The position numbers and the translations under genes were made by a program. The notes below the pieces were generated by a model, which was not told the DNA's origin, did not search any database, and saw only the letters and a program-made list of their open reading frames with translations. Shown piece by piece: positions 19,768-55,326 of a stretch of 64,000 bases of DNA; position 1 is the first letter of the stretch; the number at the start of each line of letters is the position of its first letter. Source of the stretch: Selaginella tamariscina (taxonomy: Eukaryota > Streptophyta > Lycopodiopsida > Selaginellales > Selaginellaceae); the NCBI GenBank assembly GCA_003024785.1, contig PUQB01000245.1:1-64000 (forward strand). The letters run 5' to 3'.

Positions 19768-19800
19768 ATGCACGTTGTAACTAAAGTGCGGGCATGATAC
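19768..19800 (+). repeat. Left TIR of the large transposon, copy A
   Basis: It starts ATGCACGTTGTAACTAAA. It differs from the copy B left end (40492) by a CG insertion and from the right TIR by two substitutions in the first 27 bases. Confidence 0.8.
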
Positions 19801-20055
19801 GTGAAAATGGAATAAAATAAATTACTAATTAATACTTAAGTTTTAATTATTAATTAATCATTTAATTAATATGTAATTAAGCCTTAAATATTAATTAATT
19901 AATTAATTAATCCTTCAATAACCTTACTTAGTAAGGAATATTCCTAAAATATCTTAGAATATTCATATTATTCTAAAAATAGTTTACAATAATGAAGAAA
20001 TACTATCAAACATAATTACAAATGAAATCATTTTCTTATCAACATGTTAATTTTT

Positions 20056-21233
20056 TTATAAATACTTTCTTTCTATCATACAAAGAAATCTTTTCATTTT
20101 GTCTAAATCATCACTCTCCGGATTAATCAAATCATTTTGGTCAATATCTTGATGTTGTTGCCACCACTTAACACTCTCACGAATGCAATTGGGAGTTGCC
20201 ATCCTTGTTAATACATAAGATGTGATAAGAGAAGGTCTGCATAAAGGCTCATCTAAAAACTGACGTTCCTTAAGAATAATATTATAAAGCGCCCGGTTGC
20301 TATCCTTCATTTTATAAAATTCAATATCACGAGAAAGAAAAGCTTCAGGAAATGTATGATACGGTGGATACTGCTCACAAAAATTTTCGAGATTCTTCTT
20401 TCTGAGGCACGTATCCAAGTAGTTCACTAGCTCATCCATGATATCGTATCAGAATATGGATCGAAAGTGATTGGATGAATACAAGCAATGTTTTGGTTGA
20501 GCATAGCCTTCTGAGGAGAGTCGTCTACTACTAAGATATGTGCTTCTTCATTATCCTTAAGCGACTGATCTCCCCATGAGTCCCAATTATTCTTTCATTC
20601 TTGAAGAAGTATGGCTTGCTTTCCTTTCTTATATTGTGAAATTCGAGAGGTTTATGACACATTCGCTGGTCAAAAATCCAATCTTTACGAATCACCTCTT
20701 CTGCAACACTACAATGTTTCTTAAGTAAACTCAACAGCGGTGTTAAGTTATGAATCTGCATGCATGACCAAATCCCCACAAGCGCACCCATCTCCTTAAG
20801 CTTTTGAAAGAGACGATCCAACCCTGGACGAAAAATAATATCATATCGAAATTTACCATGACAAGGAATGAAATCTCCTTGTTTGATTTCTGTTTCTATC
20901 CTCGGGCCTTTGTCGATGAAGCAGAACACCATTGACATCCAACAACACAATATGGCCATGAGTAACATGAGATAGCGTTGCCTCTTGAATACTTTGCAAA
21001 TCACTTGTTTGCTCCCTTTCACATTTATCCGTTGCCACTATTTCGTTGCCTATCCCTTCATCATTTAATTGTACATCATCCTTACAAGATTCAGATATTG
21101 CATGCGCTGAAGAAATTGATTTCGGAACTGAAGCCAATAAAAATGATGATGAAGTGGCCCCCATGGTAACGATGTTTTGAGCTGCATTATTATCCATTTC
21201 CTGCATGAACTCTGTCATTCTGACATGTGGCAC
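20056..21233 (-). pseudogene. HAD/FCP1-like protein gene, copy A (frameshifted)
   Basis: This is the near-identical counterpart of 40781-41971. In this copy the frame breaks near 20890-20910, just after the first catalytic motif (a two-base loss relative to copy B), and again near 20560, just before the DDSP motif. A further small deletion near 20440 removes the frame at the IDIMDELV region. Three partial frames (21233-20853, 21022-20531 and 20439-20056) together cover the whole protein. A short in-frame deletion near 21150 also removes a few residues that copy B has. Confidence 0.8.
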
Positions 21234-21501
21234 AAGAAATTGTCGCCAAACCCCTCTCTTACCTCATGGCAATGCTGAAAATCCATGTTCTCAATTATTT
21301 CATTACATCTGCAAAATGATAATTAGCTGACCTTAAAATTATCAAGGTATATTATTTACCTTGTTAATGTGTGACCCATGTTTGAACTAAAAGCTTCATT
21401 AATCCTTGAGAATTTATTTTCTGTACAAATATAAAAGAAATATACAAAAATGCCTTATGTTACACTCATTTACAACTATTCATCACTCTATCAATTCATT
21501 A

Positions 21502-24500
21502 TCAATTCTTCTTCGCTATTACCTTCTGATGAGGCGAAGAAGGTCTAAGCCGCTTGTGAGATGGTTCAAGATCTTCTGCATCTTCTATTGATGTTTCCAT
21601 GGGTCCTGGAGTGTGCGAATGTTCTGTACTCCTCGAGATAACTTCCGGTCTAATATCTGATTGATGTTCGTTCTCAGACTCCGAGATTGAACCAGATTCA
21701 CCTTCAGAGCTATCGCACTTATCTGGAGGGAACTTTCTCAAATACGCCTTTATGGAATCGTTGGGGTACTCAGTTGAGACCCAATCTATCCACTTGTTCA
21801 GGTCCTCAACCATGGTCTTATCCTTCTCAACGGCAAACACACATGTATGCCGAAGGTAACACTCCTTCAAGACGGACCCCCTAGTGCAGTAGTCAAAAAC
21901 CCACGCATCACTGTGAGGACCCCTGATCAAGTTGACGATGCTCCGTGCCGCTTGACTTGTAATGTTTGGATAACGTACATTGCCGAATACGTCACTCATA
22001 CCTATCGGTGTATCGGATGGAGGTTCAGGGCCGTTGGAGTGCAAACAGATGCCTGGCCAGTCATTTGGAAGCTTGAAATTGTTTGGCGCATTCCTAACAA
22101 CCAAGTGAACAACAGTATCAATGCACTTGGGATTAGCATCGTTCATATAAAATCCTGTCCAACGATGTCTATTCTTCTTGGCGAAGGCGAAGGCAAAAGT
22201 ATCGGTGACATGAGCAAGAATCAAGAAATAAATACCTGAAAAAGTAGGTATCAGTGAAGAGCGCAAGCATGAATTCAATAATAAATACCTTCTATGTATA
22301 TGCTTGCACGGCTAAGTTTCTCCACCAGATCCTCTAGTGCCCTATCTGTCGAAAGATTTTTTGACACCCGCCGATCCATCACGAACAATTGAAACGGTTT
22401 CCTACAAGCAGTGATGTTACCCCATAAAGTCTCCGAATCTAACAACAAACATCTGTAGGGCTTGTCGTGATTCGTAGCATCCTCCTTTATAAGGTTCAAT
22501 TCGGTTCTCCGCTGCTGAAGGACTGCCATAAGAGAAGGCGTCATCCCAATGTTCTCCTTTTTGGCGTTGGCGTGCAATAGATTCTTGCCTAGATCTTCCG
22601 ATTGGTTCACCCATTCGACAAGCATATCATCGTTCGTCACATGCAAATATTTGCTGACCTCTTCATATGTTGAAGTCGAGGTCCAACCCAGTTTGTGGCA
22701 GTGTATTCCCAACCACTCCTTGAAATGCCTGACCGTCTTCAACTCCATTGCCTTGAGATGAAAAGGAGAGGTTGGGCTGCTGTTATTAATTTGTAGTTTG
22801 CCATCGATCACCAAATCAGCCAAGACTTCCATCTCCTCCATCGTTGTTCCATTTAAAGGCTTCAACCATGTGAGCTTGAAATCGTTGTCTACATCCTTTG
22901 TAGATTGAACAGACTTAGCCTTCGGCGTCTTACTGGGTTTCTTTGCAGACTTTTCTGAGGGCTCCCCTTCACTTGTCTGCTTCTTCTTCAGTGTTCCTTT
23001 TGAAAAGGATTCCATAATCCCCAACCATTTGGCAAAGATCCTATCTTCGGGGCAAGAAATCAACATCATCAGAAATGATGTTTCCTTCCCGCCCACCTGG
23101 GCAAAATCAACTGCTGCAATTTCTTCAACTCTCTGAGGAAAAAGACAGATTAATATACCGGCGAGATAAATCCCGCCCAAACAATTTGCTTACCCGGTAT
23201 TCCGCAGATTGTGTATTCCCTGCGGTAGCTCTTTGTGGTCGCTGAAGAGATTCCCACACGGCTCGCGTGTGTTTAAACTTCTCCCATATTTTGCTGTTGT
23301 AGTGGTTGGTGTCGGCAGCGTCCCATTCCGCCGATAACTTATGGTACTGCTCGATTGTGAGATTCGGCTTAGCTAAAAACGCCGATCTTTTTGTCAGCTT
23401 CTCACGGGTATGCTCGGAAAGTTTTGTTGCCATCGTTCCTTTGTTGTGTTCTCGAGAAGTCGTTGGGCTGCCGTTATTGTGTGCTGGCCACTAATGATGT
23501 AGTACTTGATAGATCTTTTATTCTCCGTCTGAATCTTCATGAGTTGTTCTGGTGTTGTGATCCAGACTTTGTCAGCACCCTTCCTTCTTTCATAGTATGG
23601 ACACAAAACAGCATTATGTGGAACGGTATAAGAATTGTCGTCCTTCATCTTCTCCATGAGCTCAGCTACACGTTCCTGGTTGAGTGGCCTGTAATTGAAG
23701 TTTGGGTTGACGCTGCAATATTTAACCCTACAAGGATAAATCTTATCATCCAACATCATTTCCTTGTGACTTATTGCAGCATGAGATGCCACAGGTGCAG
23801 CTGACAAAACGATTGATGATTTTCTTTTGCGATCCGAATCAACATGTGTGATCCCCGACTGCAGCTGTTCTAGTGTTCTCGGCACACTTCCAGCTCCCGA
23901 AGCTTCCTAAGCAAATTGAACGTGATCTGTAGAGAACCTGAGACCGAGCCACCTTCTCAATCTCCCTTATGATGTCGCTGTGTTCTTCTTCAATGTCAAG
24001 AGGGAAGATTGCTCCACTTGCTGATTTTCTGTATTGTGAAGCAATATCTCCTGACAATACACCTACTCGATGAGTCTGAAGATCTTCGAAGTAGACATCC
24101 AGATGGATCCCCTCCATAGATGGGCTTTCGTTGAGTTGAAGAAGAACTCCAAGGTCAACATCATTAGTGAACACGTGAACGTCATTATCCACAAGTCGAC
24201 AAAACCACCCGAGATTAATGTTGTAACTGACGACCTCTGGATCCGAGAACGTGACATTGGATGGAACAAGGCATATCTGTCGAGCATCGTCCAATCTGGG
24301 TTCGCAGCCTGCTTTCGGGTGCTTGACTAGCGAATCTACTTTCCATTGTTTTGCTTGTCCATGAGATGTGACAGAGGTTAATTTGACAGCACCATGGTTG
24401 CTCCAATGCGCTTCCCATTTATCTTAAAATATGGCCAAGTTGATTCCAGAATCCCCCTGCCCATCTCTTCTCCTGCTCTTGTCTTTAATGTCACTCAATT

Positions 24501-24590
24501 CCACATCTGAATACAAAAATGATTAGTTCAAGTATCCGAGTATAACAGATTTTATTTTAATTCTTACCCAGAATTTGACGACGACTCCAT
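21502..24590 (-). pseudogene. ParB-like/methyltransferase-like gene, copy A (frameshifted first half)
   Basis: This is the counterpart of the copy B gene at 42229-45334, with the same introns at 23133-23193 and 22236-22288. Exon 2 is broken by private indels near 23450, 23890, 24370 and 24480, leaving separate frames (24294-23839, 23885-23394 and 23433-23194). Exons 3 and 4 stay open and encode the methyltransferase-like half. The last residues differ (ending VIAKKN) because of one indel near 21530. As it stands, this copy could not give the full protein. Confidence 0.8.
23160..23177. promoter_or_regulatory. Variant of the 18-bp palindrome inside an intron, copy A
   Basis: GGCGAGATAAATCCCGCC lies within the 61-bp intron between exons 2 and 3 of the ParB-like gene. 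It differs from the array consensus at two positions and is present unchanged in copy B. Confidence 0.75.
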
Positions 24591-24734
24591 ACTAATGACT
24601 CGATCTCCTTGTTTGATCAAATCGTCCTTCTGCAAAATAATACACTATAAATATAAATTATATAAAAACGCACACACACTTGTATAAACCCGAATATACA
24701 AAAATAATACACAGAGAGAAGTAGACGTAATTAA

Positions 24735-24817
24735 CTGTCCGAAGCTCACATTTGTGTTAGTGCAAAAGAAAGATAACATTTCGTTTTAGAACCACCACAA
24801 ATGTGAGCTCTGGACAG
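24735..24817. other. Inverted repeat upstream of the ParB-like gene, copy A
   Basis: CTGTCCGAAGCTCACATTTG and its near-exact reverse complement (ending GCTCTGGACAG) flank a loop of about 39 bases. The arms are 22 bases with two mismatches. It lies about 145 bp upstream of the start codon and could be a binding site or an RNA hairpin in the leader. Confidence 0.7.
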
Positions 24818-24933
24818 TTTTACATAGATTCCTAGCTTTTACTCGAAATATTATGATAAGATGATAAAAGTAAATAAAATGAGATATGCAACTTATATAT
24901 ACTAATACACATATATATTCACATGGAAGGTGC

Positions 24934-26150
24934 GGCGGGATTAATCTCGCCACCCCTTCAATGCCTCCTGAAAGAGTGGGCGGGATTAATCTCGCCACCT
25001 TTCTGGAGGCCTTGAACGGGAGTGCGGAATTAATCTTGCCACCCTTCTCGGTCTCAGAGAGAACTGGGCAGGATTTATTTCTCACACCCCTTCAGTGACT
25101 CCAGAAAAGGCGGGATTAATCTCGCCCACCATGTAAGGATGGTTAAATGAATTTCGCCACCCTTCCCAGTCCCCTCCATTGGTATGTTGTAAACCTTCTA
25201 CGTCTTAGACAGAAACGTTTGGGATTGGTCCAACTCACCAATGGAGGAAAAAGGGAAGGGTGGCGAGATTCATTTCTCCAACAGGCATTGAAGACTCGGC
25301 GGGATTAATCCCGCCGCCCAGGGCCTTCACTCGTCCCTATGCGGCGGGATTAATCCCGCCGGACGCCAATTCCCTGCGCGGAATCGGGCGGGATTAATCC
25401 CGCCGCCTAGGCACTTCAGGCAGGCCAATGGCGGCGGGAAATCCCGCCCGATTTCGACAGGGCATTGGCGTCGGCGGGATTAATCCCGCCTCCCAGGCCC
25501 TTCACTCGGGCCTTAGTCGGCGGGATTAATCCCGCCGAACGCCAATGCCCTGTGCGAAATCTTGCGGGATTAATCCCGCCGCCTAGGCCCTTCAGGCAGG
25601 CCAATGGCGGCGGGATAAATCCCGCCCGATTCCGCGCAGGGCATGCGTACGCGGCGGGATTAATCCCGCCCACCATGTAAGGGATGGTGAAATTAATCCC
25701 ACCACCCTTCTCGGTTCCCTCCATTGGTATTTTGTAAACCTTCTCCGTCTCAGACAGAGTTAGTCGGGATTGATTCAACATACCAATGGGGTAATGAAGG
25801 TTCGGAGATTAATCTCGCCACCGGGTAATGAAGGTTCGGAGGCTAATCCCGCCGCCCTCTCGTAAATCATGCGCTCACACATATATATTGGCTGGCATTT
25901 TTGAACAGGGATGTGGGGGCGGGATTAATCCGCCGCCCAGGGAATTCACGCAGGCATGAGGCGGGATTAATCCGCGCCGCTCCGAAGGCATGAGGGCATG
26001 AGCTGGCGGCGGCGGGATTAATCCCCATTAGAACCTTCACACAGGCCATGCCGGCGAGATAAATCTCGCCGCATTCGCGCCAGGGCAGATGAGCGCGGGA
26101 TTAAATCCCGCCGCGAGGCTATAAACTATAGCGGCGGGATTAATCCCGCC
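24934..26150. repeat. Palindrome array 1, copy A
   Basis: About 25 units built on the perfect 18-bp palindrome GGCGGGATTAATCCCGCC. Exact or near-exact units at about 25298, 25341, 25386, 25472, 25517, 25562, 25606 and 25651 are spaced about 41-46 bp apart. Units at the outer (left) edge are decayed (CTCGCC or TTGCC on one side). The spacers are themselves related (AGGCCCTTCACTCG-like). The array sits on the ParB-like gene side of the divergent intergenic region. Confidence 0.95.
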
Positions 26151-26159
26151 GCTCGAGGG

Positions 26160-26880
26160 GCTTAGCGAGATAAAAACACACACATATATATATGTGTGTT
26201 GTAATATATATATATATATATGTATGTATGTATATGTATAGGAGTGTACGTGTGTGTGCAAGAGATAGATAAATAAATAAATTATACAGTACTGGTACAC
26301 CTAATATATGTGTGTACATAGTATATATATGTGTGTATATGTATATCGTGTGTATGCGTGTGAGCGAAACAAATAAAATCATACAGATAAACAAACACAC
26401 ACACACACACATATATATATACACAGGAGTGTGCGTGTGTGTGCGAAAGATAAAACTAATAAATAAATAAAATTATACAGATAAACACACATATATATGT
26501 GTGTATATAGATATATAATCTATAGAGAAAGAGAGAGAGTCTGTGAATATATAAGCATATATATAAACTAGTGTTGTATGTATGTATATATGTATATAGG
26601 TATATATATATGTGTATATGTATATTGTGTGTATGTGTGTGAGCGAAACAAATAAAATCATACAGATAAACAAACACACACACACACATATACATACACA
26701 GGAGTGTGCGTGTGTGTGCGAGAGATAAAACTAATAAATAAAAAATTATACAGAAAACACACACATATATATATGTGTGTATATAGATATATAACCCATA
26801 TGAATATATAAGCATATATATAAACTAGTGTTGTATACTATTTGTTAATATGCATTATTATATTATATATATTTATTGTA

Positions 26881-26939
<59 letters not shown>

Positions 26940-27003
26940 GCAGTGCGCGTGTGGTGGGAGAGATAGATCAATAAAAAAAAATTTACAGATACTGGTACAC
27001 ATA

Positions 27004-27055
<52 letters not shown>

Positions 27056-27330
27056 TGTGTTAAAGCAAGATCAATAAAAAAAATTTACAGATACTGGTAC
27101 ACATAATATATGTATGTATATATGTATATATATATATATGTGTATATGTATATCGTGTGTATGCGTGTGTGAGCGAAAAAATAAAATCATACAGATAAAC
27201 ACACACACCACACACACATATACATACACAGGAGTGTGCGTGTGTGTGCGAGAGATAAAACTAATAAATAAAATTATACGCACACTCCTATACATATATA
27301 CATACATACACACACACACACACACAGATC
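26160..27330. repeat. Microsatellite block, copy A
   Basis: Compound TA, TG, CA and GTAT repeats are arranged in longer tandem units (for example the recurring AGGAGTGTGCGTGTGTGTGC and GATACTGGTACAC blocks). The frames here are artefacts of the repeats. Confidence 0.9.
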
Positions 27331-27700
27331 TCACCTGTGTGCACAGCCGCCGCCGCCGATTTCACAGCCGCCCCTCTTGAAACCCTAAGAATATACCTAA
27401 ACCCTAAAGGAATTAAATATATATATCAACCCTAATAGAATATTCCTTCTGAGAGAATATACTTAAACCCTAAAAAGAATAAAATATAGATTCGCCCTAA
27501 ACGAATATTCTTTCATTATATTATTAGCGCGTGCGTGTGCGTGGGTGTATCACATACCTCAAAAATATAAATCATGCAGGGATTTAACATGTGTGTGTCC
27601 ATGAGAGTGTTAAAGTTTCATGTGTATCACATTGCATATATTAATACACATAATATATACATACACACGTGTATACACACAGACATACACACATATTACA

Positions 27701-27732
27701 TGGGTTTAGGGTTTAGGGTTTAGGGTTTTGGA
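27701..27732 (+). repeat. Telomere-like (GGGTTTA)n tract, copy A
   Basis: Three to four consecutive TTTAGGG-type units are seen directly, followed by degenerate ones. Confidence 0.85.
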
Positions 27733-28174
27733 TTTAGGATCATGCATGGTGTGTATGTATGAGAGAAGAGAGAGTGTTGAAAAATTATTTTTGTACACAT
27801 TGCATATATTAGTACACATATATACTTACACATATTATACACAGATTATACATACATAGTATATGAGAGAAGAGAGACAGTACATATTATGGATCATGCA
27901 TGGTGTGTATTATACACACAGACATACATACATATTAGTACATAATATTAGAGAGACCGAGTACATATTATAGATCATGCATGGTGTGTATGTTTGAGAG
28001 AAGAGAGACAGTACATATTAACATGGATCATGCATGGTGTGTATGTATGAGAAAGACAGTAACATACATACAGAGTACACATATATACATACAGAGTACA
28101 CATATATACATGCACACGTGTATACACACAGACATACATACATATTACATGAGTAAATTCATTGTGTTACATAT

Positions 28175-28204
28175 TAGGGTTTAGGGTTTAGGGTTTAGGG
28201 TTTG
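28175..28204 (+). repeat. Second telomere-like (GGGTTTA)n tract, copy A
   Basis: Four consecutive GGGTTTA units are seen directly. Confidence 0.85.
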
Positions 28205-29791
28205 CTCCCAACAAGCTTAATATAAATATTACACATGTAAATTCAATGTGTTACATACAGTACACAGATTGAGTACATATATCATACATGCGTTGAACAT
28301 GATGTTTTCAATAAAGAAGCAACTATTTCTTCAGTTTGGTTTAGGGTTGTGCATGTGTGTGCATATGTGTTTTTGTAAGTTTTGTAATGCGTGTGTAAAT
28401 TTATGATTGTGTTTATATATGTGTGCAAAACAAACATCGAATAATTAAGAAAATAAAATTAATAAACACACTAGGAACATATTTTAAATTATACATAATA
28501 ATATATGATTTTATCTAATATATAGCCATATATAGTTTTAATAATATATATTAATTTAATATTGATAAAAAGGTTTAACATTGAAATATTCTTGAAATAA
28601 TAAGAAATTAATTGAGAAAATCCCATTAATATATACAAATGTAAATTAAGTACTCAAATAATTAACTAAATTAATTATCATAATCATGTTTAATATTGGA
28701 ATATTCTTGGAATAATAAGAAAATAATAAAGAATATCCCATTAATATAAAGAAGATTAATTACTCAAGTAATTAAGGAAATGATATTAATATATATATTA
28801 TTAAAACTATATATGACTATATATTAGATAAAATGATGTATTATTATGTATAATTTAAAATATGTTCATAGTGTGTATTAATTTAATATTGATAATAAGG
28901 TTTAACACATGAATATTCTTGAAATAATAACAAATTAATTGAGAAAATCCCTACAAATGTAGAATAATTACTGCAATAATTAAGAACAAGAAATTTAATT
29001 ATGATAATCAGGTTTAATATTAGAATATTCTTCAAATATTAATAAAATATTAAAGAATATCCCATTGATACTAGGAAATGAAAACTAAATACTCGAGTAA
29101 TTAAGAAAATAATAATAATAAACAGACTATGAATATATTTTAAATGATACATAATAATATATCAATTTATTTATTGTATAAGTATATATTTATATATATA
29201 TATAATATAAATATACTTGAATACTAAGAATGTAGAATATAGTCTAAAATTTCGTAATATTAAACAGCTTGAATCACTTGAATAACATTAAATGCAATTT
29301 TAAAATACTCATTGGAACTGGAGAGTATATATGTCAGAGTGTCGGATATTTGTGTCAACTCATCTTAAATTTTATTTTCTGTTCTTTTTAAAAATTTTGA
29401 ATTTCTGACATATGTATTGTCGGTCTGACATGTAAATTTGAAAATGCATTTAATTTCCCACTCAAATTCAGATCTGGTTCTTTCTCCGGCAAGGGTTTCT
29501 TCATTTCTGTATTTTTCCTCTTTAGATCTTCTTTTTTCTTCATAGTGATCATCTCAGGAGCGAGATTAAATTGGGTGCTATTCTTTATAGGAAAGCACGG
29601 CGCCTTCAGTGCTGTTTACAAGTAAGTATTATAAACAAATTTAAAAATACTTATTAAGATTCACTCTCTTACATTCTCTCTTAAAATTACAATTTAGGGG
29701 TTTAGAAATGCATTAGGATTATAATATATTCCGTTAGGGATTTATCACGTTTAAATATCCTTTTAACTTAATATTCTAGGTTAACCGGGGC

Positions 29792-30701
29792 GGCGGGATT
29801 AATCCGGCCATTTCTTTTTCGCCTCTTTGAAGAAGTGGCGGGATTAATCCCGCCACCATCTCCCGGGCAATGCTTCTCCGCCACTGAAAAAGAGTGGCGG
29901 GATTAATCCCGTCGATAACCTTCTCAACTGATGAAGAGTTACCAGAATTTATTAGAAAGAGTTGTCGGCGGGATTAATCCCGCCAACCATTTTAGGAGGC
30001 AGGGAAGGGGTGGCGGGATTAATCTCGCCACCACTTCCTGTTTTAAAGATTTGGGGACAGGATTTATCCCGAGATCTCTTTGAAATCATAGTTTTGGAGA
30101 GAGTTATGTGCGGGTTTAATCCCGCCACCCATTCCCCGTCGTAAGAATTGTGGCGGGATTAATCCCGCCTTGGACTCCCTCCGACAAGGAAGAGCCGGCG
30201 GGATTAATCCCGCCGCCTCTTCCTCCGACGAGGAAGGGAGTCCGGCGGGATTAATCCCGCCGACTCTCTCCGGCGAGGATGAGTCGGCGGGATTAATCCC
30301 GCCGGACTCCCTTCCTCGTCGGAGAGAGTCGGCGGGATTAATCCCGCCGGACTCCCCCCGAGGAGGAAGAGGCGGCGGGATTAATCCCGCCGGCTCTTCC
30401 TTGTCGGAGGGAGTCCAAGGCGGGATTAATCCCGCCGACTCTCTCCGAAGGGGTTGAGTCGGCGGCGGGATTAATCCCGCCGGACTCCCTTCCTCGTCGG
30501 AGAGAGTCGGCGGGATTAATCCGCGGACTCCCCCCGAGGAGGAAGAGGCGGCGGGATTAATCCCGCCGGCTCTTCCTTGTCGGAGGGAGTCAAGGCGGGA
30601 TTAATCCCGCCGACTCTCTCCGAAGGGGTTGAGTCGGCGGCGGGATTAATCCCGCCGACCGTTCCTCGTCGGAGGGATTCGTGGGCGGGATTAATCCCGC
30701 C
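29792..30701. repeat. Palindrome array 2, copy A
   Basis: About 18 units. Exact GGCGGGATTAATCCCGCC cores start at 30197, 30244, 30286, 30331, 30374, 30419 and 30464, a spacing of 42-47 bp. Spacers here are GAGTCC/CTCTCC-rich and differ from those of array 1, so the core is conserved and the spacer is not. The array lies within a predicted leader intron (29622-30846) of the transposase-like gene. Confidence 0.95.
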
Positions 30702-30852
30702 CATCAGTTGTATTAATCAAACATGAGATATTATCTCTAAACATAATTATGTATTATTGCATATGCATTTATTAAGTAACCGTAATTCAGATTTTCTTAG
30801 AAATATGCATAAACAGATATCATAATAATACAATTTTTATGTGCAGGACAAT

Positions 30853-33800: not shown

Positions 33801-33942
33801 TGGATGCCTAGAGAAAACATGGTCTCCCAATCAAAAAGACCCAGCATGTTTTATAAATGTTAAATCCATTCGATATGGGTGGATGTCAAGAAGCGTTGAT
33901 AAAGTCACGATTAACAAACTGCAAGGAATGTATGTTTTCTGA
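30853..33942 (+). pseudogene. DUF7869-type putative transposase, copy A (frameshifted)
   Basis: This is the counterpart of 51649-54765. It keeps the frame through VNTFTKHVEVLGME, where copy B is shifted, and through HGNTGLVKTHSHIMAA, where copy B is also shifted. It has private indels near 31022, 31280, 31430, 31490, 32030, 32110, 32240, 32630, 33030, 33165, 33330 and 33580. The intron after the DNCAGENK motif begins at 32776. Taken with copy B, the ancestral gene was clearly intact, but neither copy is open as printed. Confidence 0.85.
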
Positions 33943-33944
33943 AG

Positions 33945-34390
33945 CTTAAAGCAATTACAAAATTATAAAATATCATATATTTAATTTTCATAATTATATA
34001 AACTCTTTAATAATAGTACCAAATTGTATATTTAACTATATAAATTAAAAAATGATATGGAAGATTGACTATATTATTATAGGATTTTATATATATATTA
34101 TTACTACTACAAATTTTAATTAATAATGTTATATTTAAATATTAATATTTTAATAACAACATCAATATTTATATAATGTATCTTATGCTCTTCCTTAATT
34201 ATTATATTAGGCATATATTATATAATTTAATACATTCTACTTTTATAATGTTATTAATTTTTGTTCAATGAATGCTATAATTTATTAAAGGGTAGAATAC
34301 AAAATAGAATATTCTAAAGAATATTCCTTTAATATTAAAAAATGCTAATTAAATAGCTAAAATTGCTAATTATTAGGAAATGGGACTATA
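33945..34390. other. AT-rich tail between the transposase gene and the right TIR, copy A
   Basis: Very AT-rich sequence with the repeated motif AGAATATTC near 34310-34325. No gene is visible. Confidence 0.6.
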
Positions 34391-34419
34391 GCCATGCCCA
34401 TTTTAGTTACAACTTGCAT
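34391..34419 (-). repeat. Right TIR of the large transposon, copy A
   Basis: Read on the minus strand it starts ATGCAAGTTGTAACTAAA and continues to GGCATG, the inverted counterpart of 19768 and 40492. It is directly followed by ATGT (34420-34423). Confidence 0.85.
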
Positions 34420-39800: not shown

Positions 39801-39840
<40 letters not shown>

Positions 39841-41971: not shown

Positions 41972-42228
41972 AAAAAATTGTCGCCAAACCCCTCTCTTAC
42001 CTCATGGCAATGCTGAAAATCCATGTTCTCAATTATTTCATTACATCTGCAAAATGATAATTAGCTGACCTTAAAATTATCAAGGTATATTATTTACCTT
42101 GTTAATGTGTGACCCATGTTTGAACTAAAAGCTTCATTAATCCTTGAGAATTTATTTTCTGTACAAATATAAAAGAAATATACAAAAATGCCTTATGTTA
42201 CACTCATTTACAACTATTCATCACTTTA

Positions 42229-45200: not shown

Positions 45201-45334
45201 TGCCCATCTCTTCTCCTGCTCTTGACTTTAATGTCACCTCAATTCCACATCTGAATACAAAAATGATTAGTTCAAGTATCCGAGTATAACAGATTTTATT
45301 TTAATTCTTACCCAGAATTTGACGACGACTCCAT
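42229..45334 (-). CDS. ParB-like domain plus beta-class DNA methyltransferase-like domain, copy B (intact)
   Basis: Four exons join in frame: 45334-45312, 45250-43933, 43871-43028 and 42974-42229, giving 976 aa with GT-AG introns of 61, 61 and 53 bp. Residues about 270-370 resemble the ParB/Srx N-terminal fold: NYRPLNQERVAELMEKMK, then KYYIISGQHTITAAQRLLEE, where GQHT stands for the usual GxHR. A basic, NLS-like Lys/Ser/Pro stretch follows at about 497-521. Residues about 670-870 look like a circularly permuted (beta) amino-methyltransferase: PFQLFVMDRRVSKN at motif IV (DPPY replaced by DRRV), a strand block VTDTFAFAFAKKNRHRW, then SQAARSIVNLIRG and AWVFDYCTRGSVLKE with FAVEKD at motifs X-I. 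The C-terminus is acidic and Ser-rich. Both catalytic motifs are degraded, so a DNA-binding or regulatory role is more likely than methylation. That is inference. The start codon is the first in-frame ATG of exon 1; further upstream exons cannot be excluded. Confidence 0.75.
43899..43916. promoter_or_regulatory. Variant of the 18-bp palindrome inside an intron, copy B
   Basis: GGCGAGATAAATCCCGCC sits in intron 43872-43932, the same position and sequence as in copy A. Confidence 0.75.
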
Positions 45335-45478
45335 ACTAATGACTCGATCTCCTTGTTTGATCAAATCTTCCTTCTGCAAAATAATACACTATAAATATAA
45401 ATTATATAAAAACGCACACACACTTGTATAAACCCGAATATACAAAAATAATACACAGAGAGAAGTAGACGTAATTAA

Positions 45479-45561
45479 CTGTCCGAAGCTCACATTTGTG
45501 TTAGTGCAAAAGAAAGATAACATTTCGTTTTAGAACCACCACAAATGTGAGCTCTGGACAG
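45479..45561. other. Inverted repeat upstream of the ParB-like gene, copy B
   Basis: The same 22-base arms as at 24735-24817. The right arm overlaps the first unit of the 57-bp tandem duplication. Confidence 0.7.
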
Positions 45562-45662
45562 TTTTACATAGATTCCTAGCTTTTACTCGAAATAATATGA
45601 AGAGAGAGCTCTGGACAGTTTTACATAGATTCCTAGCTTTTACTCGAAATAATATGAAGAGA
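45549..45662. repeat. 57-bp tandem duplication private to copy B
   Basis: Two consecutive units starting GAGCTCTGGACAGTTTTACA (45549-45605 and 45606-45662). Copy A has only one. Confidence 0.9.
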
Positions 45663-45734
45663 TGATAAAAGTAAATAAAATGAGATATGCAACTTATATA
45701 TACTAATACACATATATATTCACATGGAAGGTGC

Positions 45735-47277
45735 GGCGGGATTAATCTCGCCACCCCTTCAATGCCTCCTGAAAGAGTGGGCGGGATTAATCTCGCCACC
45801 TTTCTGGAGGCCTTGAACGGGAGTGCGGAATTAATCTTGCCACCCTTCTCGGTCTCAGAGAGAACTGGGCAGGATTTATTTCTCACACCCCTTCAGTGAC
45901 TCCAGAAAGGAGGCGGGATTAATCTCGCCCACCATGTAAGGGATGGTTAAATGAATCTCGCCACCCTTCCCAGTCCCCTCCATTGGTATGTTGTAAACCT
46001 TCTACGTCTTAGACAGAAACGTTTGGGATTGGTCCAACTCACCAATGGAGGAAAAAGGGAAGGGTGGCGAGATTCATTTCTCCAACAGGCATTGAAGACT
46101 CGGCGGGATTAATCCCGCCGCCCAGGGCCTTCACTCGATCCCTATGCGGCGGGATTAATCCCGCCGGACGCCAATTCCCTGCGCGGAATCGGGCGGGATT
46201 AATTCCGCGCCTAGGCACTGCAGGCCAATGGCGGCGGGATAAATCCCGCCCGATTTCGCACAGGGCATTGGCGTTCGGCGGGATTAATCCCGCCTCCCAG
46301 GCCCTTCACTCGGGCCTTAGTCGGCGGGATTAATCCCGCCGAACGCCAATGCCCTGTGCGAAATCTTGCGGGATTAATCCCGCCGCCTAGGCCCTTCAGG
46401 CAGGCCAATGGCGGCGGGATAAATCCCGCCCGATTCCGCGCAGGGAATGCGTACGCGGCGGGATTAATCCCGCCCACCATGTAAGGGATGGTGAAATTAA
46501 TCCCACCACCCTTCTCGGTTCCCTCCATTGGTATTTTGTAAACCTTCTCCGTCTCAGACAGAGTTAGTCGGGATTGATTCAACATACCAATGGGGTAATG
46601 AAGGTTCGGAGATTAATCTCGCCACCGGGTAATGAAGGTTCGGAGGCTAATCCCGCCGCCCTCTCGTAAATCATGCGCTCACACATATATATTGGCTGCG
46701 GCATTTTTGAACAGGGATGGGTGGGGGCGGGATTAATCCCGCCGCCCAGGGAATTCACGCAGGACATGAACGGCGGGATTAATCCCGCCGCCCTCCGCGA
46801 AGGGCATGAGCGTGGGGCCGGATTAATCCCGGCGTTCATGTCCTGCGTGAATTCCCTGGGCGGCGGGATTAATCCCGCCGCTCTACGACAAACCGAAGAG
46901 CGGCGGAATTAATCCTGCCGCCCATTCCCTGTAAATGCCCTGCGCGGAATCCGGCGGGATTAATCCCGCCCATTAGAACCTTCACACAGGCCATTGCCGG
47001 CGAGATAAATCCCGCCGCATTCCGCGCAGGGCATGGATGAGCGGCGGGATTAATCCCGCCGCCGAGGCCCCTCACGCAGGCTATGGGCGGCGGGATTAAT
47101 CCCGCCGCTCTTCGGTTTGTCGTAGAGCGGCGGGATTAATCCCGCCGCCCATAGCCTGCGTGAAGGGCCTCGGCGGCGGGATTAATCCCGCCGCTCACCC
47201 ATGCCTGAAGGGCCTCGGCGGCGGGATTAATCCCGCCGCCATGGCCCCAACTATATAGCGGCGGGATTAATCCCGCC
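45735..47277. repeat. Palindrome array 1, copy B
   Basis: About 32 units of the GGCGGGATTAATCCCGCC palindrome. Exact cores at 46102, 46148 and 46192 show the 44-46 bp spacing. Compared with copy A, the right end has several extra and better-preserved units (46730-47277), including segments in inverted orientation. The array lies upstream of the ParB-like gene. Confidence 0.95.
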
Positions 47278-47294
47278 GCTCGAGGGGCTTAGCG

Positions 47295-48280
47295 AGATAA
47301 AAACACACACATATATATGTGTGTGTGTGTATATATATGTATGTATGTATGTATAGGAGTGTACGTGTGTGTGCAAGAGATAGATAAATAAATAAACTTA
47401 TACAGTACTGGTACACCTAATATATGTGTGTACATAGGTATATATATGTGTGTATATGTATATCGTGTGTATGCGTGTGAGCGAAACAAATAAAATCATA
47501 CAGATAAACAAACACACACACACACATATATATATACACAGGAGTGTGCGTGTGTGTGCCAAAGATAAAACTAATAAATAAATAAAATTATACAGATAAA
47601 CACACATATATATGTGTGTATATAGATATATAATCTATAGAGAAAGAGAGAGAGTCTGTGAATATATAAGCATATATATAAACTAGTGTTGTATGTATGT
47701 ATATATGTATATAGGTATATATATGTGTATATGTATATTGTGTGTATGCGTGTGTGAGCGAAACAAATAAAATCATACAGATAAACAAACACACACACAC
47801 ACACATATACATACACAGGAGTGTGCGTGTGTGTGCGAGAGATAAAACTAATAAATAAATAAAATTATACAGATAAACACACACATATATATATGTGTGT
47901 ATATTATGAATATATAAGCATATATATAAACTAGTGTTGTATACTATTTGTTAATATGCATTGATTATATATATATATATATATATATAGTGTGTGTGTG
48001 TGTGTGTGTGTAAAGCAAGATCAATAAAAAAAATTTACAGATACTGGTACACATAATATATGTATGTATATATGTATATAGGTATATATATTATATGTGT
48101 ATATGTATATCGTGTGTATGCGTGTGTGAGCGAAACAAATAAATCATACAGACACATATACATACACAGGAGTGTGCGTGTGTGTGCGAGAGATAAAACT
48201 AAGAAAAAAAATTATACGCACACTCCTATACATATATACATACATACACACACACACACACACAGATCTCACCTGTGTGC
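47295..48280. repeat. Microsatellite block, copy B
   Basis: The same compound TA/TG/CA block as in copy A, about 180 bp shorter, with one TG run much reduced. Confidence 0.9.
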
Positions 48281-48626
48281 ACAGCCGCCGCCGCCGCCTC
48301 TTGAAACCCTAAGAATATACCTAAACCCTAAAGGAATTAAATATATATATCAACCCTAATAGAATATTCCTTCTGAGAATATACTTAAACCCTAAAAAGA
48401 ATAAAATATAGATTCGCCCTAAACGAATATTCTTTCATTATATTATTAGCGCGTGCGTGTGTGTGGGTGTATCACATACACCTCAAAAATATAAATCATG
48501 CAGGGATTTAACATGTGTGTGTCCATGAGAGTGTTAAAGTTTCATGTGTACACATTGCATATATTAATACACATAATATATACATACACACGTGTATACA
48601 CACAGACATACACACATATTACATGG

Positions 48627-48657
48627 GTTTAGGGTTTAGGGTTTAGGGTTTTGGATT
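48627..48657 (+). repeat. Telomere-like (GGGTTTA)n tract, copy B
   Basis: Three to four consecutive units, matching 27701-27732. Confidence 0.85.
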
Positions 48658-49093
48658 TAGGATGGATCATGCATGGTGTGTATGTATGAGAGAAGAGAGA
48701 GTGTTGAAAAATTATTTTTGTACACATTGCATATATTAGTACACATATATACTTACACATATTATACACAGATATACATACATAGTATATGAGAGAAGAG
48801 AGACAGTACATATTAATATGGATCATGCATGGTGTGTATTATACACACAGACATACATACATATTAGTACATAATATTAGAGAGACCGAGTACATATTAT
48901 AGATCATGCATGGTGTGTATGTTTGAGAGAAGAGAGACAGTACATATTAACATGGATCATGCATGGTGTGTATGTATGAGAGAAGACAGAAAGTACACAT
49001 ATATACATACAGAGTACACATATATACATGCACACGTGTATACACACAGACATACATACATATTACATGAGTAAATTCATTTGTGTTACATAT

Positions 49094-49122
49094 TAGGGTT
49101 TAGGGTTTAGGGTTTAGGGTTT
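49094..49122 (+). repeat. Second telomere-like (GGGTTTA)n tract, copy B
   Basis: Four consecutive units, matching 28175-28204. Confidence 0.85.
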
Positions 49123-50718
49123 GCTCCCAACAAGCTTAATATAAATATTACACATGTAAATTCAATGTGTTACATATACACAGATTGAGTACATATATCA
49201 TACATGCGTTGAACATGATGTTTTCAATAAAGAAGCAACATATTTCTTCAGTTTGGTTTAGGGTTGTGCATGTGTGTGCATATGTGTTTTTGTAAGTTCT
49301 TGTAATGCGTGTGTAAATTTATGATTGTGTTTATATATGTGTGCAAAACAAACATCGAATAATTAAGAAAAAAAATTAATAAACACACTAGGAACATATT
49401 TTAAATTATACATAATAATATATGATTTTATCTAATATATAGCCATATATAGTTTTAATAATATATATTAATTTAATATTGATAAAAAGGTTTAACATTG
49501 AAATATTCTTGAAATAATAAGAAATTAATTGAGAAAATCCCATTAATATATACAAATGTAAATTAAGTACTCAAATAATTAACTAAATTAATTATCATAA
49601 TCATGTTTAATATTGGAATATTCTTGGAATAATAAGAAAATAATAAAGAATATCCCATTAATATAAAGAAGATTAATTACTCAAGTAATTAAGGAAATGA
49701 TATTAATATATATATTATTAAAACTATATATGACTATATATTAGATAAAATGATGTATTATTATGTATAATTTAAAATATGTTCATAGTGTGTATTAATT
49801 TAATATTGATAATAAGGTTTAACACATGAATATTCTTGAAATAATAACAAATTAATTGAGAAAATCCCATTAATATATACAAATGTAGAATAATTACTGC
49901 AATAATTAAGAACAAGACTAATTTAATTATGATAATCAGGTTTAATATTAGAATATTCTTCAAATATTAATAAAATATTAAAGAATATCCCATTGATACT
50001 AGGAAATGAAAACTAAATACTCGAGTAATTAAGAAAATAATAATAATAAACAGACTATGAATATATTTTAAATGATACATAATAATATATCAATTTATTT
50101 ATTGTATAAGTATATATTTATATATATATATAATATAAATATACTTGAATACTAAGAATGTAGAATATAGTCTAAAATTTCGTAATATTAAACAGCTTGA
50201 ATCACTTGAATAACATTAAATGCAATTTTAAAATACTCATTGGAACTGGAGAGTATATATGTCAGAGTGTCGGATATTTGTGTCAACTCATCTTAAATTT
50301 TATTTTCTGTTCTTTTTAAAAAATTTGAATTTCTGACATATGTATTGTCGGTCTGACATGTAAATTTGAAAATGCATTTAATTTCCCACTCAAATTCAGA
50401 TCTGGTTCTTTCTCCGGCAAGGGTTTCTTCATTTCTGTATTTTTCACTCTTTAGATCTTCTTTTTTCTTCATAGTGATCATCTCAGGAGCGAGATTAAAT
50501 TGGGTGCTATTCTTTATAGGAAAGCACGGCGCCTTCAGTGCTGTTTACAAGTAAGTATTATAAACAAATTTAAAAATACTTATTAAGATTCACTCTCTTA
50601 CATTCTCTCTTAAAATTACAATTTAGGGGTTTAAATGCATTAGGATTATAATATATTCCGTTAGGGATTTATCACGTTTAAATATCCTTTTAACTTAATA
50701 TTCTAGGTTAACCGGGGC

Positions 50719-51494
50719 GGCGGGATTAATCCGGCCATTTCTTTTTCGCCTCTTTGAAGAAGTGGCGGGATTAATCCCGCCACCATCTCCCGGGCAATGC
50801 TTCTCCGCCACTGAAAAAGAGTGGCGGGATTAATCCCGTCGATAACCTTCTCAACTGATGAAGAGTTACCAGAATTTATTAGAAAGAGTTGTCGGCGGGA
50901 TTAATCCCGCCAACCATTTTAGGAGGCAGGGAAGGGGTGGCGGGATTAATCTCGCCACCACTTCCTGTTTTAAAGATTTGGGGACAGGATTTATCCCGAG
51001 ATCTCTTTGAAATCATAGTTTTGGAGAGAGTTATGTGCGGGTTTAATCCCGCCACCCATTCCCCGTCGTAAGAATTGTGGGCGGGATTAATCCCGCCTTG
51101 GACTCCCTCCGACAAGGAAGAGCCGGCGGGATTAATCCCGCCGCCTCTTCCTCCGACGAGGAAGGAGTCCGGCGGGATTAATCCCGCCGACTCTCTCCGG
51201 CGAGGATGAGTCGGCGGGATTAATCCCGCCGGACTCCCTTCCTCGTCGGAGAGAGTCGGCGGGATTAATCCCGCCGGACTCCCCCGAGGAGGAAGAGGCG
51301 GCGGGATTAATCCCGCCGGCTCTTCCTTGTCGGAGGGAGTCCAAGGCGGGATTAATCCCGCCGACTCTCTCCGAAGGGGGAGTCGGCGGCGGGATTAATC
51401 CCGCCGACTCTCTCCGAAGGGGTTGAGTCGGCGGCGGGATTAATCCCGCCGACCGTTCCTCGTCGGAGGGATTCGTGGCGGGATTAATCCCGCC
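50719..51494. repeat. Palindrome array 2, copy B
   Basis: The same array as in copy A, but about 130 bp shorter through loss of about three units. It lies inside the predicted leader intron 50551-51642 (TTTACAA|GTAAGT to TGTGCAG|GACAAT) of the transposase-like gene. Confidence 0.95.
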
Positions 51495-51648
51495 CATCAG
51501 TTGTATTAATCAAACATGAGATATTATCTCTAAACATAATTATGTATTATTGCATATGCATATTATTAAGTAACCGTAATTCAGATTTCTTAAAAATATT
51601 GCATAAACAGATATCATAAATAATACAATTATTTATGTGCAGGACAAT

Positions 51649-54600
51649 ATGTTTAATACTGGAGATAAAGTATGTCTTCTTCGGAACAACGAGATAGTTG
51701 GCACTGGAACTGTGGAAGTTCGAGATAATAATGCATCATGTCACAATATTTCCCAAGGATCTTGTGTGTACGTATGGGTGAACACCATTTCAAGCATGTT
51801 GAGGTTCTGGGAATGGAATTTGAGGAGGGTTCTCCTGTATTGTGGAATTTGGATGAAGTCAAGGCTGACACAGAATATGCAGAGTCACAAACAAATAGTA
51901 GCACGAGTTTACCAGATGATGGCTTGCCTGCTGTGATGGATGAGGTGATTCTCTTTCTTCGTGAGATTGAAGTCGGAAGAGGCATCATCACAGCTATAAA
52001 TCCAATGGAAGCAGTGTCAGAAGAGAAACTAGGGTCCGACTTCGTGGGTGTAGTTGTGACAGAGGTTTCACCTAATGGCACATTGTATCCTGGATCCCTC
52101 GTGAGGTGGCGAACATCTGAATTAAGACGGCAAGATGGTTCAACATATTCTGGGTTGGATTTCAATAATAACAACCCGGAAGAACAACTCATATTTGAAG
52201 AGGTTCCTTGCATTGGTCCTATTGTAAGAAAAAGGCGATTCATGGGTTGTAGATCTTCCCCTGCAAGTTTCAGCAAGAGGGTAAAGATGGATCCTACATC
52301 TTCCGAAAGTGTTACGAGCATTTCCACGATTGACTGTTGCAAGAAGAAGTGTTGTCAGATGGCAGACCGGAATGAAATTACCCAATGTAGACATGTCTTT
52401 CGTATGCTCACCCAAAAGCAAAGGCATGAGTTTGTATATGCTGCACTAACTGGGTGTATTGATGGAATGGCCTCGGACACAGGTTATCAGAGTACATCCA
52501 TGGTATTTAATAAGGTGGCCATCTGCTTCAAAGCTTGGTACAGTATATACGGGATCCCAAAGACCACGTTCTACCGTCGGAGGGATGAGTGGCTAGATGG
52601 AGCGCGAACCTCAGTTCATGGGAACACGCTTGGTCAAAACCCGCTCTCACATCATGGCAGCCATAGAGATACTCAAGGCTTTTGTGGAAGCAAATGCAGA
52701 CAGGATGCCTCACAAATGCCGAACCACAAATGCAGGGGTCAGGGAAAATCTCAAGGTTTTACCTTCAATCTACACTCAATTGAAACTGTGTGAACATGTG
52801 AACAAGTGCCTCAGTTTGATGGGGCTCCAAGCAATCTGCACTGGTACCTTCAACAACATATGGAATACTCATTTTAAGGATGTGGAGATTGCAAAACACT
52901 CTAGCTTTTCTAAGTGTGACACTTGTACATCATTGAAGGCTGCAGAGGCTTGTGCAAAAACCTTGGTGGAGATCACTACCATTCAAAGGAAGATGGAGGC
53001 CCACATGATTGCACAACAAACTTGTCGGTCTCAGTACTATGCACACCGCATGCTTTCTGTGTCACGCCCATCAGAGTACCTGTGCTTGATCCATGACAAG
53101 ATGGATCATTCAAAGACCAGCATTCCAAAGCTCTTTGCAACACCAAAGTGCCTTGGAAATGTCATGAAACTTCCGATTTCTTTAACAGGTGTGCTAACAC
53201 ATGGACACGGTTGTGAGTCATATGGACACTTTTCACTTCCACATTGGTCTAGCGACTCCAATTTCACTATTGGGTCGTTAGCCATGTGTTTCAGAAACCT
53301 TGAAGCCCACTCACAGACAAGTCCTATCAGTGATCTCAAAGTGAAGAAACAACACCTTCAACCTTTACATAATGCTCTCATGAACACGTCTGCACTTGAG
53401 GCTACTTGGGAATATGAGAGGCATTGTCAGCAACCTGCACAAAAAACAGATGGCCCTGTTGAGAGTTCAGGTTCAGTGGAGGGATCTAGCTCAAATAGTG
53501 TACATGTGTCCTCAACATCAAATAAGCTTCCTCGTCATTTGCTTTTACAGATGGATAATTGTGCAGGCGAGAACAAAAATAGGTAAATCATTTTACTTAA
53601 GGGTTTCTCAAGCTCATACTTACTTTTATTTTCTAGATATGTGCTAGCATACTTGTCAATGCTTGTTGCCAAAGGTGTGTTTGAAACAATCACGCTCAGT
53701 TTCCTTATGGTTGGTCACACTCATGAAGATATTGATGCGTTCTTCAGCAAGGTCTCCAACTCTACAAAAAGGACAAGTGCACTTACCTTACCGCATATGA
53801 TGAATCTTTTTGAAAATTGCATCTCCAAAAAAAGTTGTGCTTTGCTTGTGACTGAGGTGCCAGACTTCAAAAAATTTCTCAAGGAGTATATAAAAGAAGG
53901 GAGTGATTCTTTAGTTGGTCACCTTGTGCCGCTACAATTCTTTTTCTCCATACGAGATGGTATACCTATTATGCAGTACAAGTTACGGCCATCAGAGCAG
54001 GAGTGGTTACCGAAAGAGGGCTTAATGCTCTTCAAAAGTGGAGAGGATGGAAAGCCACTTCTCCCAGAAGGACAACCAGACCCTATTCCATTGAGTGCCC
54101 AGCTCAAGGAACAAGAGGTTATTATTGATGGCATCAAAAAATATGTGGCATGGGTTCAAAAATCGATGCCAAAGAATTCTGATAAGGCAACTGGTTACTC
54201 AGAACTATATAAGCATGTGGTCAACTATTGGGAGACTGTTGTTCGAGAGTTGGAAGGGCCTACTGTCACAAGTACAGAATTGCAACACCCTTTCTGGCCT
54301 AAAACAAGGTGGCGAGAGGAGATTGAAATGACATCACTGAGCACAGACGACATAGAAGCCAGTAGTGATGTGGAAGTGCAAACCCCACACTTTGTTGGAC
54401 AAAGGAACCAAAAACCTAAAGCATACTTTGATTGCTGCAAGGATCTTCAAAAACTAATGATGGTTCTCATTACTCCAGATGCGTCATATAATCAGCCTAT
54501 TTGGATGGGTCAAATTATCGACACACCTGAAGTAATCACAAAAAATAGTATTGTTAAGGTTGCATGGTTCAAACCACAAAAAAGGCGACACGAGAAGGAG

Positions 54601-54765
54601 AGCGAAAGATATAATGGATGCCTAGAGAAAACATGGTCTCCCAATCAAAAAGACCCAGCATGTTTTATAAATGTTAAATCCATTCGATATGGGTGGATGT
54701 CAAGAAGCGTTGATAAAGTCACGATTAACAAAACTGCAAGGGAATGTATGTTTTCTGAAGCTTAA
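51649..54765 (+). CDS. DUF7869-type putative transposase, copy B (two small frameshifts)
   Basis: The ancestral protein would be about 1,000 aa. The N-terminal part has MFNTGDKVCLLRNNEIVGTG and VVVTEVSPNGTLYPGSLVRW. A Cys-rich block follows (CCKKKCCQMADRNEITQC), then the family-typical FRMLTQKQRHEFVYAALTG, AICFKAWYSIYGIPKTTFYR and SFSKCDTCTSLKAA. The C-terminal domain matches the DUF7869 pattern: LCLIHDKMDHSK, LLLQMDNCAGENKNR, a 54-bp intron (53583-53636), YVLAYLSMLVAKGVFE and FLMVGHTHEDIDAFFSKVS. The conserved D, DN and HxHxDxD residues could form a DDE/D-type active site (inference). Frame breaks at about 51780 and 52625 are absent from copy A. The gene points towards the right TIR and is divergent from the ParB-like gene. 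Confidence 0.8.
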
Positions 54766-55210
54766 AGCAATTACAAAATTATAAAATATCATATATTTAA
54801 TATTCATAATTATTATAAACTCTTTAATAATAGTACCAAATTGTATACTTAACTATATAAATTTAAAAAATGATATGGAAGATTGACTATATTATTATAG
54901 GATTTTATATATATATTATTACTACTACAAATTTTTAATTAATAATGTTATATTTAAATATTAATATTTTAATAACAACATCAATATTTATATAATGTAC
55001 CTCTTATGCTCTTCCTTAATTGTTATATTAGGCAATATATTATATAATTTAATACATTCTACTTTTATAATGTTATTAATTTTTGTTCAATGAATGCTAT
55101 AATTTATTAAAGGGTAGAATACAAAATAGAATATTCTAAAGAATATTCTCTTTTCAAACATATATTCTAAAGAATATTCCTTTAATATTAGAAAATGCTA
55201 ATTAAATAGC
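54766..55210. other. AT-rich tail of copy B up to the junction
   Basis: It matches copy A to about 34359 but has a short duplication around an AGAATATTC motif at 55132-55180. No gene is seen. Confidence 0.6.
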
Positions 55211-55326
55211 TTTATTCTCTTACTTTTTTGTGAGAACCGATGGTTACTTAAACGCGTGGAAAAGTACTACATGTGAAGCTATAAAAAGCCATCTCTTGCT
55301 ACATGGTTAGGTCAATTTCAAGTAGC
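55211..55326 (+). repeat. Left TIR of the Dof-carrying element, locus 2 (truncated)
   Basis: Matches the inner part of the TIR at 37366-37573 and keeps the TATA box (55279-55288). Confidence 0.8.

Follow-up and report, generated by a model that had tools for sequence, protein, structure and literature searches.

To our knowledge, the escape of transposons from plant silencing is understood in sequence-specific detail for few systems. In Arabidopsis, VANDAL elements, which are related to MuDR, encode the anti-silencer VANC. Arrays of the VANC21 motif are found upstream of VANA and within introns of both VANB and VANC, and VANC proteins are described as having highly variable regions and as co-evolving with their motifs (PMC5735166). 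Here, we analyzed a 64,000-nt stretch of Selaginella tamariscina DNA (contig PUQB01000245.1 of assembly GCA_003024785.1, positions 1-64,000; hereafter the window), which holds two copies of a large DNA transposon with terminal inverted repeats (TIRs), a HAD/NIF-phosphatase-like gene, an orphan gene, a DUF7869 gene and internal arrays of an 18-bp palindrome.

Three further groups of elements serve for comparison. Sola elements are characterized by a DDD transposase, a 4-bp target site duplication (TSD) and TIRs of at least 11 bp; they mostly measure 2-9 kb, with some above 15 kb, and are present in Physcomitrella patens (PMC10741241). They are also listed for ferns (PMC6890710, PMC6786969). CACTA elements have a 3-bp TSD and CACTA termini (PMC10741241). 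In fungi, DNA transposons of several superfamilies carry a TET/JBP dioxygenase gene that is thought to counter silencing (PMC12730594).

Three linked genes recur between the same TIRs

The sequence-only reading had described two copies of about 14.7 kb, here named A and B, with the same gene order, the same left TIR and an inverted right TIR in A, all of which we saw (Table 1). In both copies the order is HAD (−), orphan gene (−) and DUF7869 (+). The left ends start with ATGCACGTTGTAACTAAAGTG, the right end of A is the inverted ATGCAAGTTGTAACTAAAATG, and the termini begin with ATGCA. By manual count, 25 of 27 positions agree between the right TIR of A and the left TIR of B. Within the window only copy A has a right TIR; B stops short of its own. 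The two copies align in five main blocks with identities of 99.1, 96.7, 93.1, 96.4 and 95.9%, and substitutions per 500-bp bin range from 0 to 10%, most being 0-1.2%.

The host assembly (300.7 Mb, 1391 contigs) was searched with the TIR and the three proteins. It also gave 26 matches to the light-harvesting family PF00504, as expected of a photosynthetic plant. The TIR pattern gave 4,092 matches at up to 2 mismatches (2097 forward and 1995 reverse), against 0 for the reversed-pattern control. At least 122 matches were obtained for a piece of the DUF7869 protein, at least 96 for exon 2 of the orphan gene and at least 102 for the HAD protein, out of 5966, 6565 and 7153 first-look candidates, respectively. 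Many copies appeared near-identical in these match lists, which were ranked by score, a ranking that overstates the likeness among copies. Among the first 100 TIR places listed there were 23 convergent neighbouring pairs less than 40 kb apart, and 13 of the 23 span 13-17.5 kb.

Ten elements on other contigs were fetched, chosen for DUF7869 and orphan matches about 8-9 kb apart on the same contig. All ten contain both TIRs, the HAD gene, orphan exons 2-4 and the DUF7869 exons in the same order, over 14.7-16.7 kb. One of them (C1102) carries an insertion in its orphan gene and differs in its last TIR base, another (C102) has N as its last TIR base, and two (C658 and C803) hold about 2.4-2.5 kb of N inside. 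The spacing of the genes was also sharp. Among pairs from the ranked lists lying on the same contig at most 100 kb apart, HAD and orphan matches are separated by 3.1-3.45 kb on the same strand in 15 of 24 cases, HAD and DUF7869 matches by 11.5-12.2 kb in divergent orientation in 12 of 17, and orphan and DUF7869 matches by 8.1-8.9 kb, again divergent, in 15 of 26; the window copy is included in all three groups, and the last group is the source of the ten elements. The ten elements and these spacings rule out that the three genes stand together by chance. Taken together, the results support a TIR DNA transposon whose three genes travel together, and the expected recurrence of the TIRs around the same genes was found in every fetched element.

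Of the first 100 ends listed, 19 belonged to a third variant of the TIR, which has T at position 6. Palindrome arrays are close to some of these ends (on C1, at about 912 and 931 kb), and one pair is only 6.7 kb apart (C84); they possibly represent a sister or shortened family.

Both window copies derive from one insertion

The flank on the right of A (X) begins with ATGT, the flank on the left of B (Y) ends with ATGT, and beyond B the two flanks occur joined (Y'X') with a single ATGT. This indicates one insertion at Y|X with a 4-bp duplication. Y differs from Y' by 0.26% and X from X' by 0.06% substitutions. The left flank of A is unrelated to Y, and the right end of B is lost. A and B are thus products of later rearrangement after a single insertion at Y|X; two independent insertions are ruled out by this common target site. 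The window itself is an example of a chimera, with A bearing a foreign left flank and X on its right. That left flank (19316-19764) lies within a repeat 82% identical to 1234-1665, and since the repeat continues without the element at 1665, the left end of A abuts a site other than Y.

Outside the window, an exact 4-bp duplication was present at 6 of 19 usable loci, where about 0.07 would be expected by chance (our own arithmetic). Among the fetched elements, read by eye, it was found in one of nine usable cases (CATT), the tenth having N at its right flank. Ten further TIR pairs, picked by spacing and all among the 13 that span 13-17.5 kb, gave five exact duplications (TAGA, CGTT, CTAT, ATAA and TGGT).

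Palindrome arrays lie inside the element, upstream of two genes

Exact copies of the 18-bp perfect palindrome GGCGGGATTAATCCCGCC number 27 in B and 21 in A, and the rest of the window has none. At up to 3 mismatches there are 42 sites in B, 35 in A and none in the rest of the 64 kb, and five mononucleotide shuffles of B gave no site at the same threshold. The shorter core GGGATTAATCCC was found outside the copies at 2 places with 2 mismatches and at 7 places with 3 mismatches. Genome-wide, the exact palindrome occurs 27,128 times, against 0 for the control. The ten fetched elements have 18-31 exact sites each; at about 25 per element (mean of twelve), the genomic total corresponds to roughly a thousand element equivalents by our own arithmetic.

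The layout is constant. When up to 2 mismatches are allowed, each of the 12 elements carries 12-25 palindromes in array 1 and 12-21 in array 2, exactly one more inside the orphan gene and none elsewhere, the counts for C658 and C803 being minima on account of their N runs. The single site lies in intron 2 in A and B and at the same offset in the others, shifted in C1102 by its insertion. The palindrome arrays named in the sequence-only reading exist; they are internal, between the divergent genes, and not at the ends.

Of 344 distances between neighbouring sites, 244 are 44-46 bp, or about four turns of the helix. Across the 41 array sites of B, conservation is 90-100% in the 18 columns of the palindrome and 34-68% in the columns beside them. 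Since sites were selected with at most 3 mismatches, 15 or more of the 18 positions must match and part of this conservation is built in; even so, 27 of B's 42 sites are exact copies. Between arrays 1 and 2 of B, palindromes are 95% identical, spacers 58% and shuffled spacers 53%, so it is the palindrome, rather than the repeat unit, that the two arrays have in common. Observed/expected CpG ratios of 1.04 and 1.14 were obtained for the two arrays of B, and values of 0.41-0.76 for seven other stretches of the window. Two palindrome clusters elsewhere in the genome (C1:130054-130227 and C1:1809596-1813952) have no TIR nearby among the TIR matches listed, and may represent remnants of decayed elements or sites that do not belong to the family.

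Part of the orphan gene is under purifying selection

In B, the orphan gene is composed of four exons with GT/AG borders. Its 976-aa product matched no Pfam family up to E 10. Neither the whole protein nor exon 2 alone found a relative among 5.8 billion proteins in a search that needs shared five-residue words; none was found in phages, and PHROGs returned only matches at E 0.17 and 0.39. Against the PDB, the matches were dTor_9x57R (E 3.4e-6), dTor_3x57R (E 0.014) and three rows at E 0.45-1.2. Both dTor entries, which we take to be designed repeat proteins, were set aside, being repeat-protein matches with no single stretch passing.

Selection was assessed from distinct synonymous (S) and non-synonymous (N) changes across the 12 copies. 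Exon 3 of the orphan gene has 9 S and 1 N (p 1.4e-4). Exon 2, in 34 copies from a protein-score-ranked list that favours conserved copies, has 66 S and 87 N (three stops; ratio about 0.52, p 1e-4), and 55 S and 79 N without CpG sites (p 0.001). The exon-1 part of DUF7869 has 9 S and 7 N in the 12 copies (p 0.03). The orphan and transposase genes are thus constrained in part, and the HAD gene shows no constraint. The idea that the additional genes are working cargo fits the orphan gene and does not fit the HAD gene, which is most likely a passenger.

The HAD gene itself was correctly called: its NIF domain matched PF03031 at E 5.8e-11 (42.8 bits, cut-off 21.8). Its protein had no PDB match up to E 0.01 and no relative in the viral contigs searched. 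What we take to be HAD motif I reads DVNGV, which makes activity uncertain. Single-base indels vary from copy to copy in the ten other elements, so some of the frame breaks in Table 1 may be sequencing errors.

The DUF7869 protein is the likely transposase

Two pieces of the protein matched PF25273 (DUF7869) at E 1e-26 and 2.8e-13, confirming the domain call made from the sequence. In a 25-sequence alignment (the copy-B query and 24 sequences chosen among the 120 relatives listed), D167, D320, D360 and D362 are invariant, among 34 invariant columns, and the invariant Asp positions fall in the motifs IHDKMDxxKT, LQxDNxxxxNKN and VGHTHEDID. These residues fit an RNase-H-type DDD nuclease and would allow a DDD triad. 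From the conserved Asp residues and the structure of the element, the DUF7869 protein is likely the transposase; the role assigned to it earlier is to that extent strengthened rather than proven. DUF7869 thereby gains a structural context (TIRs, 4-bp TSD and an empty site) that points to a transposase.

The named relatives among the 120 matches listed are from bryophytes (Riccia sorocarpa, Physcomitrium patens) and molluscs (Mytilus edulis, Saccostrea echinata), and the viral contigs searched gave no relative. Two contigs in Bacteroidetes metagenome-assembled genomes (L001 and L002) carry DUF7869 pieces in frames seemingly broken by introns, which suggests eukaryotic contamination of the bacterial bins; they were left out of the analysis.

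A putative anti-silencing system and its alternatives

We propose that the element is a large cut-and-paste transposon, in which the DUF7869 protein would cut and join DNA and leave 4-bp target duplications. The orphan protein may be a DNA-binding regulator of its own element, recognising GGCGGGATTAATCCCGCC, probably as a symmetric dimer. Its putative binding places would be the arrays upstream of the orphan and transposase genes, together with the intron site of the orphan gene. The most likely effect of binding there would be to keep both promoters active and unmethylated, and the element family alone would then escape silencing and multiply, as VANC enables VANDAL elements to do. We put the chances about even that the orphan protein regulates its own element through specific sites. 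That it is an anti-silencer proper, by analogy with Arabidopsis VANC, we suggest only tentatively. The same caution applies to the broader idea that sequence-specific anti-silencing evolved independently here, through the orphan protein of a DUF7869 (possibly Sola) transposon and some 27,000 palindromic sites. If this is true, those sites would be enough for a genome-wide private chromatin network of one transposon family.

Several observations weigh against this proposal. Pfam, the PDB and the protein databases gave no DNA-binding domain or relative of the orphan protein, and the palindrome binder could instead be the transposase or a host factor. Across the 12 copies, no significant constraint was seen in orphan exon 2 (10 S/16 N), orphan exon 4 (5 S/13 N), DUF7869 exon 2 (2 S/8 N) or the HAD gene (11 S/26 N, two stops), and the 34 copies of exon 2 were sampled as stated above. 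The high CpG ratio of the arrays may only reflect tandem-repeat turnover. The 4-bp duplications predicted at unrelated sites were absent from 13 of the 19 usable loci, so that this prediction held in part; the loci that lack them may be explained by near-identical copies having recombined, by alternative transposition or by joins made in assembly.

It is unlikely, though worth weighing, that the orphan protein is instead an accessory transposition factor, which folds the element and brings its ends together as TnpA does in En/Spm. Accessory DNA-binding proteins are known from other large TIR elements, and the regular 44-46 bp spacing would fit cooperative assembly. However, the arrays lie inside the element, several kb away from both TIRs and upstream of its two main genes, and all 12 copies are free of palindromes beyond the arrays and the orphan-gene site.

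We find it rather improbable that the orphan protein is an autorepressor that binds the arrays, damps its own expression and that of the transposase, and so limits copy number. Sites upstream of both genes and within the orphan's own gene would suit such a role, but the great number of TIR ends and the near-identity of many copies argue against effective self-restraint. It also seems doubtful, to a similar degree, that the palindromes serve as structured DNA or as sites for the DUF7869 transposase or a host factor, with some unrelated role for the orphan protein. Every exact site is a perfect inverted repeat, and binding by the orphan protein is itself deduced; on the other hand, no sites lie near the TIRs, where transposase binding would be expected, and one constant site lies inside the orphan gene.

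The sequence-only reading had taken the orphan product for a ParB-methyltransferase, which would segregate or methylate the element. By eye, YYIISGQHTITAAQ resembles the G-x-H motif of ParB, and FDYCTRGS...AVEKD methylase motifs I and II. We regard this reading of the protein as very unlikely. There was no Pfam family to E 10 (the ParB profile being that of Pfam only), no methylase or ParB among the PDB rows and no database relative. A five-sequence beta-class methylase profile reported 767 of 2000 shuffles and not the real sequence; local alignment to E. coli YhdJ was no better than shuffles (566 of 1000 reached its score, and 107 of 300 at full length), the hhalign probability was 0.4%, and no constraint was seen in the exon that holds the methylase-like motifs. 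None of these tests supported either fold.

Finally, an assembly artefact or a single local duplication as the source of the association, which the single origin of A and B, the mismatched flanks of many copies and the copy-to-copy indels (possibly sequencing noise) might suggest, is almost certainly excluded by the sharp gene spacings and the same architecture in ten of ten elements on ten other contigs.

Coordinates and other features of the window

Table 1. Features of copies A and B and their target site in the window
Feature	Position	Strand	Details
Copy A	19768..34419	+	14,652 bp, both TIRs; from TIR positions and alignment to B
Left TIR of A	19768..19796	+	2-bp insertion relative to B
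HAD/NIF gene, A	20056..21211	−	Frame broken
Orphan gene, A, exons 2-4	21491..24507	−	Frame broken
Intron palindrome, A	23160..23177	.	
Palindrome array 1, A	24934..26150	.	
Palindrome array 2, A	29792..30701	.	
DUF7869 gene, A	30936..33952	+	Frame broken
Right TIR of A	34393..34419	−	Inverted
Target duplication ATGT, right side	34420..34423	.	Start of flank X, right of A
Target duplication ATGT, left side	40488..40491	.	End of flank Y, left of B
Copy B	40492..55209 (end approximate)	+	Left TIR present; right end truncated, joined to Y'
Left TIR of B	40492..40518	+	27 bp
HAD/NIF-phosphatase-like gene, B	40781..41949	−	PF03031
Orphan gene, B	42229..45334	−	4 exons, 976 aa without stop
Orphan exons, B	45334-45312, 45250-43933, 43871-43028, 42974-42229	−	GT/AG borders
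Single palindrome, orphan intron 2, B	43899..43916	.	
Palindrome array 1, B	45735..47277	.	25 sites, upstream of orphan gene
Palindrome array 2, B	50719..51494	.	16 sites, upstream of DUF7869 gene
DUF7869 gene, B	51649..54768	+	PF25273; exon break 53582/53637; frame broken upstream
Y'X', empty joined target site	55210..59783	.	Single ATGT at 58237-58240

Short plant telomere-type repeats (GGGTTTA and TTAGGGT units) are present in the middle of copy B, at 48625-48661 and 49093-49122. Outside the copies, direct repeats of about 470 bp, 84% identical (7430-7898 and 16002-16446), bound a region (7430-16446) that is possibly an LTR (long terminal repeat) retrotransposon; it contains an ORF (open reading frame) at 11066-11551 that looks integrase-like by eye, with no Pfam support. 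An intronless 530-aa ORF without a Pfam match lies at 62244-63836, and a partial copy of it, 99.9% identical, stands beside the X' flank at 59750-60340, another local duplication. Rfam returned nothing at the gathering level.

Comparison with known systems

Described Sola elements and the S. tamariscina element share a 4-bp TSD, TIRs and a size range, and the invariant Asp positions of the DUF7869 protein would allow a DDD-type transposase like that of Sola. The 4-bp TSD is the same, the TIRs (25 of 27 bp matching) exceed 11 bp, and 14.7-16.7 kb falls within a range that extends beyond 15 kb. Judged from published descriptions, the DUF7869 protein has Sola-like features and the element may belong to Sola. 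The case for a previously unseen superfamily is not made, as the size, TSD and spread fit Sola. Unlike Sola elements, the S. tamariscina element adds two genes and internal palindrome arrays, and we know of no Sola element with two such extra genes and such arrays. In the literature searched, no paper contained the DUF7869, palindrome or TIR strings, and no title or abstract described this element.

En/Spm, a CACTA element with TnpA, is likewise large, has TIRs and combines a short repeated motif with a second protein. The TnpA motifs are subterminal, whereas the arrays described here are internal. The termini are ATGCA and the TSD is 4 bp, unlike the CACTA termini and 3-bp TSD given above, and Pfam found no CACTA transposase domain in the element's proteins. 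The fungal TET/JBP transposons, as outlined above, resemble the element in carrying a candidate anti-silencing gene; they differ in that no dioxygenase was found here, the accessory gene being an orphan.

In layout, the element resembles VANDAL/Hiun elements that encode VANC. These too combine an element-encoded extra protein with dense non-coding arrays of one short motif (PMC5735166, PMC10398659), which lie upstream of the transposase-type gene and within an intron of the regulator's own gene. This layout was present in 12 of 12 elements, the intron position being read in A and B and found at the same offset in the others. The orphan status of the protein would also fit a VANC-like protein, since VANC proteins have highly variable regions. 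In contrast, the VANDAL motif is 9 bp in one orientation and the motif here is an 18-bp perfect palindrome; the likeness to VANC proposed here is one of layout and putative function. The S. tamariscina element would thus represent a very numerous family with a complete candidate anti-silencing system, protein and site, in a photosynthetic host.

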